From Acidobacteriota bacterium (GTDB lineage Bacteria > Acidobacteriota > Terriglobia > Bryobacterales > Bryobacteraceae): DNA of 64,000 nt. Position numbers and translations under genes: made by a program. Positions 3,280 through 64,000 of the stretch are shown piece after piece (the stretch's first letter is position 1; each line of letters opens with the position of its first letter). Location: positions 1 to 64,000 of the forward strand of contig JAFKEE010000061.1 of NCBI GenBank assembly GCA_017307505.1, in the 5' to 3' direction. The notes beneath the pieces were generated by a model. It saw only the letters and a list, made by a program, of their open reading frames with translations, was not told the DNA's origin and did not search any database.

Positions 3280-4017
3280 AGGAAACTACGCCATCAGACG
3301 GCGCAATCCTGGAGCTCGGCCAGCACGCCTTCGCCTATGACCTCAAACGGGAGCGCCTCACCATCCGCCACTGCGGCGAACGCACCAAGCACGGCGACGG
3401 CCTGCGCACGCGCAATAGAGAGACCCTCACGATCCAGGACAGAGGGAACCCCGGTTTGGATCTCATCCGCTTCATCGCGCCAGAGGGCTTCGCCTACTGG
3501 AGTTTCTTCCTAGGCCACCCCAGCCTCATGGGTGCCTTCCCTTGCGTGTTCGCGGGATCACGGCCTCACCGAACCCCATCCGTCCTTTGGCCATCCTGAC
3601 GATATTCGTCCTGGCCAGCGGGAATCCACGAGCCCCGTCCCATGCGCAAGCTGGGGATCGCGGCCTCAAGCAACCAGAAGGAAAGTCCTCTCAAAACCCT
3701 CTAATTCCGCCGAGGGTGATCTCCTTGATCACAGCCCGAAAAAATAAATCGCACACGCCGTTTCAACCACTTACCGCCGTTTTCTTCAAAACCCCATTGA
3801 CCCGTCTGCCAAACTCTCTCCCGAACGCGGAGCGCTTTGCCCCGCCCAGGCACCCGTTGGCCAGAACCAACAGGTTCCTTTTGTTCTTTGAAAACCGCAC
3901 CGCCCCTTGTTTCCACTAGGACACCCGGAGTCCCACCTCGGGCCTCCGGGCGCCGGCCCATCCACTCGCCGTTTCAGCCGCACGCACCCACCCGGACCCT
4001 TACATGCCCGCCCCGGC
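3280..4017. other. Gene-free stretch; possible decayed coding fragment at about 3297-3535
   Basis: The frame around 3297-3535 reads like ordinary protein (DGAILELGQHAFAYDLKRER, then LTIQDRGNPGLDLIRFIAPEG and FAYWSFFLGHPSLMGAFP), with no convincing start or family. It may be a relic of an inserted or deleted gene. From 3600 to 4017 I see no coding signal. The sequence becomes C-rich and AT pockets appear (3735-3800). Confidence 0.3.
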
Positions 4018-4513
4018 GACGAAACGAACCCATTCCGCAGTTTCGGGCCGCCACCACCACCGTGCCGCGGGCCAACCCGGAAACCCCAATCCACTCTCCC
4101 GGAGGCAACAAACCCATTCCCGGCGCCGACCCGTACACCCGGCCCACAATCCCGCATCAGCAGGTTTTGGCGAAACAAACCCACTGCCCGAGCCACCCAA
4201 TCCGGAAAGAGCCCCCGCTGCCTCAGGGCCAATCCGCCCCACCGGAACCGCCAATCCACCCGCAATGAGCGAACAAACCCACTGCCCGTCCGGTCACCCC
4301 AAGCCGGACCAACCGCCAATCCCGCAAATTGGAGGGAACAAACCCATCGCGGACGCCGCGCCGCTCACCGGCCTCAAAAACTTTGGCCGAACAAACCCAC
4401 TACCAAGGCTGCCAATCCGAACACCCCGCCCCGCCAATCCCCTCGCACCGAGCGAACAAACCCAACGCCCGTCCGGCCGCCGATTCCTCAGATTTGAGCG
4501 AACAAACCCATTC
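4018..4513 (-). repeat. Degenerate repeat array, eight copies of TGGGTTTGTTCG
   Basis: On the minus strand the core TGGGTT lies at 4505-4510, 4459-4464, 4394-4399, 4341-4346, 4276-4281, 4178-4183, 4111-4116 and 4027-4032. Most copies read GAGCGAACAAACCCA on the plus strand. Spacing is irregular (46-98 bp), and a companion GCCAATCC recurs between most copies. Two copies also share CCCGTCCGG after the core. The last copy begins within four bases of the stop codon of the radical SAM gene. Function unknown. Confidence 0.75.
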
Positions 4514-4514
4514 T

Positions 4515-5582
4515 TCAAGCCGCGCTCGCCGGCACATACGAACACCGCGGATCCGACTCCAGGTAATCCCCCGTCAACGCAAACGCCCGGCTCCTCGACC
4601 CGCCGCACAGATTCCGGTACTCGCACCCGCCGCACTTGCCCACCAGCGCATCCGAGTCCCGCAGCACCTTGAATAAGCCCGAATCGCAGTACGCCTGCTG
4701 CAGCGGAGTCCGCCGCACATTCCCCGCCGACACCTCCAGGAACCCCGACGGAAAGATCTCGCCCGTGTGCGAAATGAACAGGAACCCCTTCCCGTCATTG
4801 ATCCCGGCCTGCCGCTGGATGATGCCCGCCGGAGCGCCCGCCATCCGTCCGCCGGCCGCTCCGCCCTGCGCCTTCCGCCTCTGCGCCACATACCGCCGGT
4901 AGTGCTGCGCTTCCGTCGTCTTGATGTCAAACGGAGCCGTCAGCGACGTCTGGTATAGGTACTCGAACACCTGCTCGTACTCTTCCGCCGTCAGGTCGTC
5001 CGCCAGCGACGCCCGTCCGGTCACCACCAGGAAGAACACGCTCCACAGCCGCGCCTTCTCCGCGCCCACCACCTGAGCGATCCGGTCCAGCGACTCCACG
5101 TTATGCCGGGTCACCGTCGTATTGATCTGCGTCTCCAGTCCGATCCGCGCCGCATGCCGCAGCGCCGCCATCGTCCGGTCATACGACCCCGACACCTGCC
5201 GGAAATTGTCATGCGCCGCCGCATCCGCCCCATCCAGGCTCACCGCCATCCGTGACACGCCGCAATCCTGAATCCGCGAAACCGCGTCTTCCGTCAGCAG
5301 CGGAGTCGCGCTCGGCGTCACCGTCGTCCGCAACCCCAGCGCCACACTCTCCTTCAGCAGCTCAAACAGGTCCGGCCGCTTCAGCGGATCCCCGCCCGTA
5401 AACACCAGCAGAGGATCGCCAAAATCCTTGATCTGCCGCAGCGTCGCCCGCGCTTCTTCTAAGGACAGTTCGCCCGGATCCCGGTCCGGCCGCGCCGACG
5501 CCCGGCAATGCTTGCAGGCCAGGTCGCAGGCCTGGGTCACTTCCCAAATCACGAGAAAAGGAGCTTGTGAAAAGTCGCGCAT
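4515..5582 (-). CDS. Radical SAM/SPASM protein, TIGR04053-like
   Basis: A 355-residue radical SAM enzyme. The SAM cluster motif CDLACKHC gives Cys19, Cys23 and Cys26, followed by GGDPLKRPDL (the GGE-type SAM contact) and SLDGADAAAHDNFR. The C-terminal SPASM region carries CGGCEYRNLCGGSR and a last Cys in DPRC, likely for auxiliary Fe-S clusters. It resembles the TIGR04053 group, related to the heme-pathway enzymes AhbC/AhbD and NirJ; the substrate is unknown. A TTG at 5606 would add eight residues; the ATG at 5582 fits the family start (MRDFSQAPFLVIWEV). A Crp-type palindrome lies about 57 bp upstream. Confidence 0.85.
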   Translation of the reverse strand: MRDFSQAPFLVIWEVTQACDLACKHCRASARPDRDPGELSLEEARATLRQIKDFGDPLLVFTGGDPLKRPDLFELLKESVALGLRTTVTPSATPLLTEDAVSRIQDCGVSRMAVSLDGADAAAHDNFRQVSGSYDRTMAALRHAARIGLETQINTTVTRHNVESLDRIAQVVGAEKARLWSVFFLVVTGRASLADDLTAEEYEQVFEYLYQTSLTAPFDIKTTEAQHYRRYVAQRRKAQGGAAGGRMAGAPAGIIQRQAGINDGKGFLFISHTGEIFPSGFLEVSAGNVRRTPLQQAYCDSGLFKVLRDSDALVGKCGGCEYRNLCGGSRSRAFALTGDYLESDPRCSYVPASAA

Positions 5583-5632
5583 AAGGTTGTCCGCCAACAA
5601 CCTCAATTTATCTGGACTTTTTTGTTTCGTCG

Positions 5633-5646
5633 GTGACGAAAGTCAC
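5633..5646. promoter_or_regulatory. Crp/Fnr-type operator upstream of the radical SAM gene
   Basis: GTGACGAAAGTCAC is a perfect inverted repeat with the Crp core GTGA-N6-TCAC. The longer string CGTCGGTGAC-N4-GTCACGG is shared with the hemerythrin promoter at 63071-63091. On the minus strand an AT-rich -10 candidate (GATAAA, 5607-5612) lies about 30 bp from its centre. That fits activation from a site near -41. The likely binder is the Crp/Fnr protein encoded next door. Confidence 0.7.
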
Positions 5647-5778
5647 GGTCCGCCAGCCGTTTCAGCCGCATCCTGGTATCGTGAACAGCGGAAATTCAAT
5701 CCGAAAGGCAACCGCCGTCGAGCATCCATCGATCCGGCCGGTCACCCCGTCGAATCCCTCCGCCACCCCATTTGGACG

Positions 5779-5848: not shown

Positions 5849-6571
5849 TCAGTACTCCGTATCCGCCTCGCCCTGCAAAGCCCCGCGGTCGGCAATCTCG
5901 ATCTGGCGCTTCACAATCCGCACCATCCCCTCGGCCTGAAACCGGGCCAGATTTCGCGACACCACCTCGCGCACCGTCCCCAGGCGCAGGGCCAGTTCTT
6001 CATGCGTCAGTGGGATTTGGACACTCCCATCGGACTCCCGTTCCGCCTGCAGCAGCGCCTGCGCCAGTCTCTGCCGCACGCTTCCGAACGTCACCGCTTC
6101 AATCACGCCCACAAGCTGGCGCAACCGCCGGCCCACCAGGGCCAGAACCTTGATCGGCACCTCCGGATGCTGCCGGCAGAAACGCCGGAAATCTTCCTTT
6201 CTGACCAGGAAGATCACACAGTCCTTCAGGGCCGTCACCGTAGCCGGATAGTCGCCGTTGTCGAACAGCGGCACCTCCGCCACGCTCGACGGAGCCGACT
6301 CCACCCCCAACATAATCTCCCGGCCCGACGGGCTGGTCTTCAAAATCTTCACGCTGCCCGACCCGATCACATGCAGCCCCTCGCAGGGCGTGCCTTCGAA
6401 AAACAGGGTCTCCCCGGCCGCGTACGTCTTTTCCACCGCGAGCGCCGCAATCTGCTGGCGTTCCTCGGGTGTCAGCGTCGTGAACAACGACGTCTTGTCG
6501 AATGTCTCCCGCCGCAGGGGAGATAACGGAGATTCAGATGGCTTTTGCAATCGGGTTTCAATGTATCGCAT
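5849..6571 (-). CDS. Crp/Fnr-family transcriptional regulator
   Basis: About 240 residues. The N-terminal cyclic-nucleotide-binding-type barrel (about 25-115) includes YAAGETLFFEGTPCEGLHVIGSG and SVAEVPLFDNGDYPATVTAL. A long dimer helix and a winged HTH follow (LTHEELALRLGTVREVVSRN). The recognition helix has R-E-x-x-S-R, like the Crp R180/E181/R185 set, which fits the GTGA half-sites nearby. There is no N-terminal Cys cluster, so it is not an oxygen-sensing FNR; a Dnr/HcpR-like NO or heme sensor is possible. The ATG at 6571 is chosen (6589 also possible). Either start overlaps the divergent ferredoxin gene. Confidence 0.88.
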   Translation of the reverse strand: MRYIETRLQKPSESPLSPLRRETFDKTSLFTTLTPEERQQIAALAVEKTYAAGETLFFEGTPCEGLHVIGSGSVKILKTSPSGREIMLGVESAPSSVAEVPLFDNGDYPATVTALKDCVIFLVRKEDFRRFCRQHPEVPIKVLALVGRRLRQLVGVIEAVTFGSVRQRLAQALLQAERESDGSVQIPLTHEELALRLGTVREVVSRNLARFQAEGMVRIVKRQIEIADRGALQGEADTEY

Positions 6572-6777
6572 GTGGAGCATGCCGCTCAACGTGCCCGAAC
6601 GGCGCGATCCAGGGAGCCAAGCCCCGCTTCCGCATCGAACCGCTCCTCTGCACCGAATGCGTCCTCTTCGCAGACGAACCGCTCTGCGTAGCCGAATGCC
6701 CGGTCCGGGCCATCGTCGAACTCATCCCGACCCCAACCGCGATTCACAACAGCACCAAAAACGGAGTAACCAAATGA
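6538..6777 (+). CDS. Small two-cluster 4Fe-4S ferredoxin-like protein
   Basis: A 79-residue protein with CIACGACRSTCP and, after a CTEC pair, CVAECPVRAI: two ligand sets of the bacterial 2[4Fe-4S] type, the second with a longer loop between CTEC and CVAEC. It probably carries electrons in the cytoplasm. GGAG lies 6-7 bp before the ATG. Its stop overlaps the cupin start (ATGA, 6774-6777), so the two are translationally coupled. Its first 34 bp are antisense to the start of the Crp/Fnr gene. It could supply electrons to the nearby radical SAM enzyme (inference from proximity). Confidence 0.85.
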   Translation: MAFAIGFQCIACGACRSTCPNGAIQGAKPRFRIEPLLCTECVLFADEPLCVAECPVRAIVELIPTPTAIHNSTKNGVTK

Positions 6778-7115
6778 GTGAAAAATATATATTTGTCAAT
6801 AACTTAAAAGACCATTCCCCTCTGCCAGAGAACGGCATTCTCAGCCGCACCCTGCAGAACGACGCCCGCACCAAGGTGATCCAGTTCACCTTCTCGCCCG
6901 GCCAGGAACTCTCGGCCCACACGGCCCCCATGCCGGCCACAATTTACATCGTCAGCGGCCAGGCCACCCTCCGCCTCGGCGACGACACCATGGAAGCGGC
7001 CGAAGGCGCCTTTGCCTACATGACGCCGCTCCTCGAGCACGGCATCCAGGCCAAAACCGAAGTCGTCATGCTCCTGACCATGATCAAAAACCCGCCCGCC
7101 GAGCCCAAATCCTAA
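6774..7115 (+). CDS. Cupin-domain protein
   Basis: A 113-residue single-domain cupin. The first motif is weak (GQELSAHTAPMPATIYIVSGQ) and the second includes MTPLLEHGIQA, leaving His residues that could bind a metal. The ATG overlaps the ferredoxin stop by four bases. Small cupins of this type are often found beside Crp/Fnr-regulated redox genes. No substrate can be assigned. Confidence 0.8.
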   Translation: MSEKYIFVNNLKDHSPLPENGILSRTLQNDARTKVIQFTFSPGQELSAHTAPMPATIYIVSGQATLRLGDDTMEAAEGAFAYMTPLLEHGIQAKTEVVMLLTMIKNPPAEPKS

Positions 7116-61869: not shown

Positions 61870-62525
61870 TGAGATTTCTTCTACTCGGCTTGCTGGCGGT
61901 GGCCGCCTACGGGCAGGTCGCCGATAAAGCCAACGCGCGCTACCGCACAGCGGAAGGACGCGAAGGCATGCTCCTGACGCTGGGTGCGCCGGATCGTCCG
62001 GATCGCATCCACGCCGAGACCATCGTCAAGGTTCTCAAGGTCAAACCGGGCCAGACCGTGGCGGACATCGGGACCGGAGCCGGTGCGCTGCTCAGCGTAC
62101 TGGCGCCCGCTGTCGGCGAACAGGGGAAGGTCTATGCGGAGGACATCTTCGACGACTTCCTCAGCGCCGCGAAGAAGCGCCATGCCGGCTCGAAAAACAT
62201 CACGTTTGTGCTGGGCAACGAGAAGGACGTCAAGCTGCCGCAAGGGTGCTGCGACGTGGCTGTGACCGTCGACGCATACCATCATTACGACTATCCGGGG
62301 GAAATGCTCGCCTCGATTCACAAAGCGCTGAAGCCCGGCGGCCGCTTCGCGGTGGTCGACTACTACCGCCGGCCCAACGCGATGGGACCGGGCGGCAATG
62401 CCATGGAACACATCCGCATTGACAAGGATGCCGTCATCGCCGAAGTGCAGGCGAACGGATTCAAGCTGGTGGAGACCACCGACACGGTGAAGGACTCGCA
62501 GTACATCGCCGTGTTCTCGCGCTAG
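61869..62525 (+). CDS. Class I SAM-dependent methyltransferase, possibly exported
   Basis: A 218-residue protein. VADIGTGAGALLSVLAP is the SAM-binding glycine loop and HHYDYPGEMLASIHKALKPGGRFAVVDYYR the post-II segment. The first 16 residues (RFLLLGLLAVAAYGQ) look like a signal peptide, so it may act outside the cytoplasm, as in several acidobacterial and planctomycete relatives. The GTG start overlaps the hom stop (TAGTG), suggesting translational coupling. The end overlaps the hemerythrin gene by 4 bp. Confidence 0.85.
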   Translation: MRFLLLGLLAVAAYGQVADKANARYRTAEGREGMLLTLGAPDRPDRIHAETIVKVLKVKPGQTVADIGTGAGALLSVLAPAVGEQGKVYAEDIFDDFLSAAKKRHAGSKNITFVLGNEKDVKLPQGCCDVAVTVDAYHHYDYPGEMLASIHKALKPGGRFAVVDYYRRPNAMGPGGNAMEHIRIDKDAVIAEVQANGFKLVETTDTVKDSQYIAVFSR

Positions 62526-63040
62526 CGATTGCGCCGGGCTTTCATTTCGCCGGCGATCGTCTGGAGCACATCCTGGGGCAGGTGCTGGGCCGCATAGCTC
62601 TGCAGTGCGTCGTCTTCCGAGGCGATGTGCGCGCGATAGAGCGCGGTGAGACGGGAGACCAGATCTTTCACCTGCACAGTCTGATCCGGCTGGGCATAGA
62701 CCTGCTTCAACCTCGTGTAGAGCTGGTGCGCCTCGGCGTGGTCGTGCTCGAGACCCGCCAGATACGTGCGTTCGCCGGCCTCCAGCAGAGGCTTCAGACG
62801 CGGGAAGATGCTGAGTTCCTCGTCCTCGGTGTGCAGTTCGCCGCTTGTGTCCATGAAGCGGAAGGCGCTCTCGAACGCCTCCAGCGCCTGTTCCCGATGA
62901 GTCTCCAGGAACTCGGCGGCGCGCTCCATGGTGTCGAGACGCTCTTCGATGCGGCGATGACAGGCCTTGAGGTGTTCCAGCGGCGCATCCAGGGAGGAGC
63001 GCTCGGATTTCTTGGCAAAGAGGGCTTCCGCTCGAATCAT
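62522..63040 (-). CDS. Hemerythrin HHE-domain protein
   Basis: A 172-residue four-helix protein. The likely diiron ligands are His28, His70 with Glu74, His99 or His101, His138 and Glu142 (HLKACHRR, HTEDEELSIFP, HDHAEAHQLY, AHIASEDDAL). Such cytoplasmic proteins bind O2 or NO, or store and repair iron centres. A Crp-type operator lies 36-49 bp upstream. That operator matches the one before the radical SAM gene at 5582, so the two genes may respond to the same signal. Confidence 0.9.
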   Translation of the reverse strand: MIRAEALFAKKSERSSLDAPLEHLKACHRRIEERLDTMERAAEFLETHREQALEAFESAFRFMDTSGELHTEDEELSIFPRLKPLLEAGERTYLAGLEHDHAEAHQLYTRLKQVYAQPDQTVQVKDLVSRLTALYRAHIASEDDALQSYAAQHLPQDVLQTIAGEMKARRNR

Positions 63041-63075
63041 ACCTTTATTGTCATGGATTCGAGGCTCAAGCGTCG

Positions 63076-63089
63076 GTGACCGGAGTCAC
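63076..63089. promoter_or_regulatory. Crp/Fnr-type operator upstream of the hemerythrin gene
   Basis: GTGACCGGAGTCAC is a perfect inverted repeat with core GTGA-N6-TCAC. CGTCGGTGAC before the spacer and GTCACGG after it are identical to the site at 5628-5648. An AT-rich -10 candidate (GACAAT, 63047-63052) lies about 33 bp from its centre on the minus strand. It overlaps the stop codon of the upstream ASKHA-domain gene. Confidence 0.7.
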
Positions 63090-64000
63090 GGAAGCGTGAA
63101 CGGCGCCAGAAGCATTGATTCGGCGAACAAATCCTGAAAGGCCGGATCGGCCGCAAGTTCGACATGTGCCGTCCGTTCGAGCAGGCGATTGAGCCTTTGC
63201 AATCTTGCAGTTGGCGACAGCAGCAGCATTCGGGCGCCGCGCAGGGCGGAATTGCCCACCGGTTCGACCGGGCAATTGCCGGGCAATAACCCGATCGAGG
63301 TGGCGCTCGCCTGGCGCACATAGTTGCCGAAGGCGCCCGCGAGATAGAGCCGCTCGGGCTTTGGATGAGCCAGCATCTTCAGTCCGGCCGCCATCGCCCC
63401 TTTCGCCAGTTGCAGCTCCCGCAGGTCGCCCTGGGAAAGCGCCACTCCGGGGGCCAGCAGGACTTCCCTGCCCGGCGTGGTGACACGCCCGTTCGGCTGC
63501 ACGATGTCCAGTTCCCTGGCTGCGGCGGCTGCGTCGACCAGGCCGCTGCCGCAGATGCCGCGCGGATCGACGCCCCCAATCACCCGGCACTCGAAGGCGC
63601 CGTTGACGGGATGCACGCTGTCGATGGCACCGCTGCCGGCACGCATGCCTTTCGAGATACGTCCACCTTCAAACGCGGGTCCGGCGGCTGTACTGGCGCA
63701 GACGATGCCGGCGCGGCTGCCCATTACGATTTCGCCGTTGGTTCCGATGTCGAAGAGGGCCACCGGAGCAGGAGACTCATCCAGCCCCGTGGCGACGATG
63801 CCAGCGAGCAGGTCGCTGCCGACGAAGCCGCCCAGATTCGGGAGGAAGGTCGCCGGGCCAGGCCAGTCCAGGTCCGCCGCTTTGAACGAGACCGCGCCGA
63901 GGGTGGGCGACTCGAAGGGCACGCTGGCGAGCGGCTCGACGCTGAGTCCGCAGAACAGGTGGTGCATGGCCGTGTTGCCCACCAGGAGAATCTCCTCCAG
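63086..64000 (-). CDS. ASKHA-domain (DUF4445, RACE-like) corrinoid-protein activator, partial
   Basis: The 3' part of a larger gene, open through the window end (the frame reads LEEILLVGNTAMHHL at the edge). The ASKHA ATPase motifs are VGNTAMHHLFCGL, LFDIGTNGEIVMG (phosphate 1), TAAGPAFEGGRI and GICGSGLVDAAA (phosphate 2), ending with LYLAGAFGNYVR. Complete RACE/RamA-type proteins have an N-terminal 2Fe-2S or linker region and reactivate cobalamin-dependent methyltransferases by ATP-driven reduction. The N-terminal half and any corrinoid partner lie outside the window. Confidence 0.85.
   Translation of the reverse strand: MEEILLVGNTAMHHLFCGLSVEPLASVPFESPTLGAVSFKAADLDWPGPATFLPNLGGFVGSDLLAGIVATGLDESPAPVALFDIGTNGEIVMGSRAGIVCASTAAGPAFEGGRISKGMRAGSGAIDSVHPVNGAFECRVIGGVDPRGICGSGLVDAAAAARELDIVQPNGRVTTPGREVLLAPGVALSQGDLRELQLAKGAMAAGLKMLAHPKPERLYLAGAFGNYVRQASATSIGLLPGNCPVEPVGNSALRGARMLLLSPTARLQRLNRLLERTAHVELAADPAFQDLFAESMLLAPFTLP

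Follow-up and report, generated by a model that had tools for sequence, protein, structure and literature searches.

DNR and NnrR, the denitrification activators of Proteobacteria, are Crp/Fnr proteins with nir- and nor-type targets, and their operators have a 4-bp spacer between two 5-bp half-sites. FNR requires a conserved set of cysteines for its oxygen-sensing [4Fe-4S] cluster, and an operator at −41.5 is the geometry of a class II activator, as in CRP and FNR promoters. In the parts of the comparative study of Rodionov et al. (2005; PMC1274295) used here, the DNR and NnrR operators are given as TTGATnnnnATCAA and TTGcgnnnncgCAA, HcpR is identified as the regulator of hcp (nitrosative stress), the HcpR operators include wTGTGAnnnnnnTCACAw in Desulfovibrio as well as TTGACnnnnGTCAA and GTAACnnnnGTTAC, and a correlation is described between two bases of the half-site, G and A, and the family residues R180 and E181. 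Met68 is a heme ligand of HcpR, according to a part of PMC12750200.

Here we describe a predicted regulon that would work like those of DNR, NnrR and HcpR but with an operator of its own, GTGACnnnnGTCAC. Two such operators lie in the window (the whole 64-kb stretch of DNA analysed), and it is very likely, from sequence comparison, that they serve as operators for a class II activator in a nitrogen-oxide regulon of the Bryobacterales, an order of the Acidobacteriota. Across the order, the operator keeps a fixed distance to a −10 box, stands mostly before genes of nitrate, nitrite and NO metabolism or repair, and co-occurs with the Crp/Fnr protein whose gene lies beside site 1. Our model suggests that this one regulator is probably the activator of genes by which the bacteria use nitrate and nitrite and withstand nitric oxide. 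The relevant features of the window are the following, where the composite is the pattern GTGAC-N4-GTCAC-N-G-N20-TAnnnT.

4515–5582, minus strand: radical SAM/SPASM protein, NCBIfam TIGR04053 (458.3 bits, cut-off 395).
5605–5610, minus strand: −10 element TAAATT of promoter 1, 22 nt past the operator, in an exact composite match (C52:5605-5646:-).
5628–5633, minus strand: −35-like element CCGACG of promoter 1, from the logo of 47 sites.
5633–5646, no strand assigned: operator 1, the palindrome GTGACGAAAGTCAC, facing a minus-strand promoter and conserved before radical SAM orthologs.
5849–6571, minus strand: Crp/Fnr-family regulator with the helix T-V-R-E-V-V-S-R, over the PF00027 and PF13545 cut-offs, ATG at 6571.
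6538–6777, plus strand: 2x[4Fe-4S]-type ferredoxin (Fer4 families), divergent from the regulator gene and overlapping its 5' end.
6774–7115, plus strand: small cupin protein (PF07883).
62522–63040, minus strand: hemerythrin HHE protein (PF01814), ATG 42.5 bp from the operator centre.
63047–63052, minus strand: −10-like element GACAAT of promoter 2, one base further than in promoter 1.
63071–63076, minus strand: −35-like element CCGACG of promoter 2, from the logo of 47 sites.
63076–63089, no strand assigned: operator 2, GTGACCGGAGTCAC, from the palindrome count in the window.

The initial annotation had drawn attention to CGTCGGTGAC-N4-GTCACGG at 5628-5648 and 63071-63091. Both 21-mers are present there, each before a minus-strand start: the centre of site 1 lies 57.5 bp upstream of the radical SAM ATG at 5582, and that of site 2 lies 42.5 bp upstream of the hemerythrin ATG at 63040. 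In the window, the exact palindrome GTGAC-N4-GTCAC occurs twice, against an average of 0.09 and a maximum of 1 over 100 shuffles, and the 17-base extended form also occurs twice (shuffled mean 0.00). With up to two mismatches allowed, the palindrome was counted 45 times against 29.9 expected (sd 5.5), a modest excess.

Next to the palindrome, a promoter could be recognized. We built a logo from 47 sites that precede genes for the radical SAM protein, for hemerythrin or for Ric (iron-sulfur repair) in the source genome and its relatives. Since a site had to have at most one core mismatch (L089 was left out, its site being at a distance of 243 bp), conservation is independent of the selection in the flanks and the −10 alone, and the related genomes are not independent of each other. 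In this logo a TAnnnT box starts 22 nt past the palindrome (T36 in 28/47, A37 in 33/47 and T41 in 34/47), and a G is found at operator+15 in 39 of the 47 sites, in the context C-[TAC]-G-[AC]-C. It had been claimed that the identity outside the palindrome, in CGTCG and GG, exceeded chance. For CGTCG this was correct, as it is the −35-like CCGACG read from the other strand; the GG is barely informative, its two positions carrying 0.23 and 0.09 bits in the 47-site logo. Given the −10 box 22 nt past the palindrome, the operator centre falls at −41.5, counted from the −10, if transcription starts 6–7 nt after that box. A predicted −41.5 centre, a −10 box and a weak −35 are found together, as in class II activator promoters. 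Promoter 2 has two mismatches to the composite pattern. The operator overlaps the −35-like element by one base, and a repressor, relieved by NO, could bind there instead; we regard this as quite unlikely, since the fixed 22-nt spacing to the −10 and the poor −35 are needed for activation and not for repression.

A scan of the genome for further copies had been put forward as a check on the motif. In the 9.39-Mb source genome, the exact palindrome is found at 16 places, against 6 for the reversed pattern, and mechanical ORF reading with family scans placed seven of the 16 before nitrogen-oxide, hemerythrin, Ric or radical SAM genes, while six lie within apparent ORFs (C3, C17, C23, C33, C47 and C66). 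The seven comprise two sites on C15, one before a Ric gene at 216165 and the other before a major-facilitator gene (narK-like by our reading) followed by a molybdopterin oxidoreductase gene; one on C32, between nrfHA (a cytochrome c552 by Pfam, with a gene ahead of it that we read as NrfH-like) and a divergent Alginate_exp porin gene; two on C49, before a hemerythrin gene and a Ric gene; and the two in the window. A further site, C49:44128, precedes a gene read as dehydrogenase E1-like, and the remaining two (C49:23345 and C70:198474) were assigned no gene context. Composite matches with up to two mismatches numbered 36, against 27 control places, so these looser matches are uninformative in this genome.

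Two regions of the source genome deserve separate mention. The operator on C32 (G000:C32:462858-462927; L006 1440-1620) apparently serves two divergent promoters, with nrfHA leftward (exact composite match) and the porin rightward (one mismatch), the porin ATG being close to the predicted +1. At C49:40000-56000 (G000; L019 2000-18000), a cluster combines Ric and an NnrS-like gene (our reading) with several genes of hemerythrin type and one for a cytochrome-b-like membrane protein. The latter has no Pfam match, and relatives of it are found repeatedly under composite promoters.

We then consider conservation across the order. The palindrome count alone is too weak as proof, as it exceeds the control even in genomes without a regulator ortholog (184 versus 117; 256 versus 105 in genomes with one). 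For this reason, we used the composite with its −10 box and tests of upstream regions. Of 257 genomes from the order, 111 carry the composite, at 182 places in all, against 2 places for the reversed control, and predicted targets linked to the composite occur in 50 of the 84 sampled genera; in family f3, none of 18 genomes has a composite and none has a regulator ortholog at E<=1e-30. In the upstream tests, which were confined to matches given with loci (all 30 radical SAM, 29 of 30 Ric, with L123 dropped at a contig edge, and all 22 hemerythrin loci), the 300 bp upstream were searched for the operator, with one mismatch allowed; it was found for 17/30 radical SAM loci (12 exact), 21/29 Ric loci (14 exact) and 10/22 hemerythrin loci (8 exact). 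The corresponding Markov-shuffled means were 0.18, 0.28 and 0.13, and the reversed pattern gave 1, 0 and 1 loci. Weak homologs mostly have no operator: it precedes 16 of the 23 radical SAM loci above 400 bits, most hemerythrin homologs under about 150 bits are without it, and the five closest orthologs of the window hemerythrin all keep it (three exact, two with one mismatch). In one relative (G035:C62:48253-48459; L073/L108), Ric and radical SAM genes point away from each other with three exact operators and one near-exact operator in between, and the regulator and a hemerythrin gene are on the same contig, about 5 kb from them. Palindromes of this kind do turn up in coding sequence too, as would suit two sites alike by chance, but this order-wide conservation refutes such an explanation, together with the shuffles, the upstream tests, the composite counts and the co-occurrence with the regulator described below; we hold it to be next to impossible.

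The regulator gene sits upstream of the radical SAM gene, and its product belongs to the Crp/Fnr superfamily (PF00027, 80.2 bits, cut-off 27.5; PF13545, 65.7 bits, cut-off 27). Orthologs at E<=1e-30 were detected in 132 of the 257 genomes. Ortholog and composite occur together in 96 genomes, the regulator only in 36, the composite only in 15, and neither in 110 (Fisher p=2.7e-24). When labels were shuffled within the 84 genera, 38 of which contain more than one genome, the mean was 82.7 and the largest value 92, and none of 5000 shuffles reached the 96 observed; the permutation was run first over 20 genera and then over all 84, with presence/absence lists transcribed by hand. Composite and regulator gene are neighbours in at least 23 genomes, with gaps of 3-606 bp (the pairs were picked by hand and the gaps computed). 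This strong co-occurrence, even within genera, and this adjacency argue against another regulator of the same specificity reading the sites in place of the protein beside site 1. Such a regulator would account for the 15 of 125 genomes that carry composites, some before the same genes, and have no ortholog at that threshold; there, 7 of the 13 ORFs read under composites fall in the same gene clusters, and either incomplete assemblies or a further regulator explain these cases. The other full Crp/Fnr protein of the source genome, encoded on C6, also has R-E-x-x-S, but it is present in just 5 of 61 genomes (the source genome included) and was rejected as too rare for an order-wide promoter. We judge the involvement of another regulator to be very unlikely.

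The recognition helix R-E-x-x-S-R ascribed to the protein beside site 1 was confirmed. With numbering on the translated segment 5849-6562, all 33 distinct orthologs that cover the helix have V197, R198, E199, S202 and R203, and V201 is I in one of them. This set was gathered without a motif filter (39 loci, 34 distinct, 33 covering the helix), because in a filtered set of 48 orthologs the selecting pattern itself fixes most of the helix and the helix counts are circular. The correlation of R180 and E181 with the G and A of the half-site, described in part of Rodionov et al. 2005 (PMC1274295), fits the GTGA operator found here. The nine closest relatives in named genomes (63-77% identity) all come from metagenome assemblies; eight are labelled Bryobacterales, Bryobacteraceae or Paludibaculum, and one Arcobacter, which we read as a mislabelled bin.

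How does this system compare with those already described? It shares with DNR/NnrR a Crp/Fnr protein and the spacer and half-site lengths; NorB, a NirK-like protein (168 bits, cut-off 296), an NnrS-like protein (our reading) and Ric are encoded under composites, as predicted targets that would resemble the nir- and nor-type ones. However, the operator GTGACnnnnGTCAC is neither the FNR box TTGATnnnnATCAA nor TTGcgnnnncgCAA, and assignment to DNR/NnrR was rejected on this ground; the predicted regulon also adds the TIGR04053 radical SAM, the NapH-like protein and the porin. HcpR operators are the closest. Within the sites quoted from PMC1274295, that of Desulfovibrio holds the same GTGA-n6-TCAC core, and TTGACnnnnGTCAA and GTAACnnnnGTTAC differ from ours by one base per half-site, so that the operator here can be read as the CRP-like GTGA of Desulfovibrio HcpR combined with the inner C-N4-G of other HcpR sites. 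We rejected HcpR membership, as the source genome (99.9% complete) has no hybrid cluster protein gene (PF03063), a gene found in 5 of 14 control genomes. With CRP, the system has in common the GTGA-n6-TCAC core and the R180/E181-type helix, and the best PDB sequence match of the regulator is a Crp-family chain, 4ev0 (91.6 bits); in contrast to CRP, the predicted regulon concerns nitrogen-oxide rather than carbon metabolism. A structure model of the regulator (pLDDT 78.8, pTM 0.53) matches folds of the whole superfamily, with cAMP-binding CRPs first by E-value and DNR (0.59) and HcpR (0.57) highest by query TM-score among the 50 PDB matches listed, and was set aside as a guide to the ligand because it does not decide between ligands.

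Regarding FNR, the only conserved cysteines are C60 (31/34 unfiltered orthologs; 43/47 in the filtered set) and C129 (33/34; 47/48). With two conserved cysteines an FNR-type cluster is unlikely, and FNR membership was rejected.

To describe the regulon, we read 134 distinct sites of the 182 composites; 129 gave an ORF of at least 70 aa, mechanically chosen. The largest clusters are a NapH-like polyferredoxin (29), Ric (23 plus one truncated), an Alginate_exp porin (11), the TIGR04053 radical SAM (10) and NorB (9), followed by a cytochrome-b-like membrane protein with no Pfam match (4), a DUF438-hemerythrin-PAS protein (3), two hemerythrin clusters (3 and 2; the second is 60% identical to the C49 hemerythrin) and an NnrS-like protein (3; our reading, no family match). 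Clusters of two comprise DUF3079, dehydrogenase E1-like and NirK-like proteins and, by our reading, a multihaem cytochrome and a TonB-type protein; at least one such small cluster is antisense to a regulator gene. NrfH and a cupin are among the single genes. For most clusters, one member was compared with family models: Ric (238 bits, TIGR03652, cut-off 204.7), NrfH (152; 134.2), radical SAM (463, TIGR04053; 395) and the cytochrome-c-like domain of NorB (211; 29) exceed their cut-offs, and the NapH-like (84; 213), NirK-like (168; 296) and E1-like (259; 411) proteins fall below them. We judged 99 of the 129 ORFs, in 11 clusters (NapH-like, Ric, porin, radical SAM, NorB, cytochrome-b-like, DUF438, NnrS-like, two hemerythrin and NirK-like), to be on a nitrogen-oxide theme, these clusters being chosen after they had been seen.

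These targets also bear on a broader role, that of a general anaerobic or redox regulator similar in function to FNR, with the nitrogen-oxide genes as part of a low-oxygen programme. The 29 NapH-like ORFs and the E1 dehydrogenase-like targets speak for it, the major-facilitator and molybdopterin oxidoreductase genes of the source genome would suit anaerobic respiration, and C60 and C129 could be redox-active. However, two conserved cysteines do not make an FNR-type cluster of four, and genes typical of an NO response, namely Ric (23), NorB (9), NnrS-like (3) and hemerythrin-domain genes (8), make up 43 of the 129 ORFs. We consider the broader role possible but doubtful. A Crp/Fnr regulon for nitrogen-oxide handling that includes both window genes, as proposed from the window itself, is a prediction well supported by comparison.

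Three points of the earlier proposal need revision. The regulon is not small: the source genome has at least seven sites, and order-wide its members also include Ric, NapH-like, NorB, NrfH, NirK-like and NnrS-like proteins and the porin besides hemerythrin and radical SAM. Nor is the radical SAM enzyme its heart, with an operator (at most one mismatch) before 17/30 loci against 21/29 for Ric; by these comparisons, the gene is a conserved member of the predicted regulon. Its product scores 341.2 bits as an AhbD heme b synthase and passes the TIGR04053 cut-off, yet this is under the curated AhbD cut-off of 500, and by that cut-off it is not AhbD. As for the ferredoxin and cupin genes, they were suggested to be regulon genes and have no operator of their own, the best match in 6301-6800 having three mismatches; in favour of the suggestion, a composite promoter in another genome (L195) stands immediately before a gene whose product is 67% identical to the window cupin.

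Start-codon spacing was scored for 99 ORFs of the eleven largest clusters, with 30 others set aside. The first in-frame ATG lies exactly 48 nt from the first base of the operator, which is the predicted +1, in 20 of them, and at 59-62 nt in 30; among the radical SAM genes under composites, it is at the predicted +1 in 8 of 10. As start codons cluster at the predicted +1, we hypothesize that several mRNAs of the regulon may be leaderless in the Bryobacterales. That of the window hemerythrin may be leaderless too, from the distance between its ATG and the operator.

Our model suggests that a regulator dimer would bind the palindrome with three residues of its recognition helix (R198, E199 and R203) and would touch RNA polymerase from −41.5. 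The trigger of activation, which we infer from the target genes alone, would be NO or a related signal (nitrogen oxide or redox) reaching the sensor domain. In the window, activation would drive the TIGR04053 radical SAM gene and the hemerythrin gene. Of the 132 genomes that carry the regulator, 36 have no exact composite. A more specific joint reading would make the regulator a separate Acidobacteriota clade of NO sensors using C60 and C129, through thiol chemistry or a thiolate heme ligand and not by the DNR/HcpR arrangement, with the AhbD-like radical SAM enzyme making or repairing a tetrapyrrole cofactor that enzymes acting on NO and nitrite would need when oxygen is absent, and with much of the regulon leaderless. 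Taken as a whole, this reading is speculative and in our view improbable.

In the open-licence literature searched, we found neither the operator GTGACnnnnGTCAC in print in any of four spellings, nor a paper on such a regulon in these bacteria, nor the string TIGR04053. The nearest study concerns a meta-regulon of an anammox reactor (PMC8510549), where a table contains a single Bryobacteraceae bin; neither GTGA nor acidobacter occurs as a string in the portion covered. The covered portion of the Solibacter genome paper (PMC3174227) makes no mention of Crp, Fnr, nitrate or nitric oxide. Order-wide, the predicted regulon is well supported by our comparisons. As a part of the same genome paper notes, Acidobacteriota are abundant in many soils (PMC3174227). 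The way in which they regulate their use of nitrate, nitrite and NO matters for N2O and for the loss of nitrogen from soil. The motif offers a handle that can be searched in genomes and that names a regulator, a promoter geometry and targets, and placing the TIGR04053 radical SAM family beside nitrogen-oxide metabolism makes a role for the enzyme testable.

Finally, we made some minor observations in and near the window. The ferredoxin and regulator genes overlap head to head by 34 bp (window 6538-6571), with the ferredoxin start within the first regulator codons, and one of the two starts may have been set too early. Just upstream of site 2 ends a gene for a RACo-type corrinoid activation protein (PF14574, 194 bits; ASKHA), which runs from window 63086-64000 into L017 and is followed there by genes that we read as methyltransferase-related. 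The intergenic region at 3960-4515, adjoining the radical SAM gene, contains imperfect repeats with AACAAACCCA at irregular spacing, and more repeat copies of this type are hinted at by 'QTHSS'-like peptide strings close to where the same contig ends.
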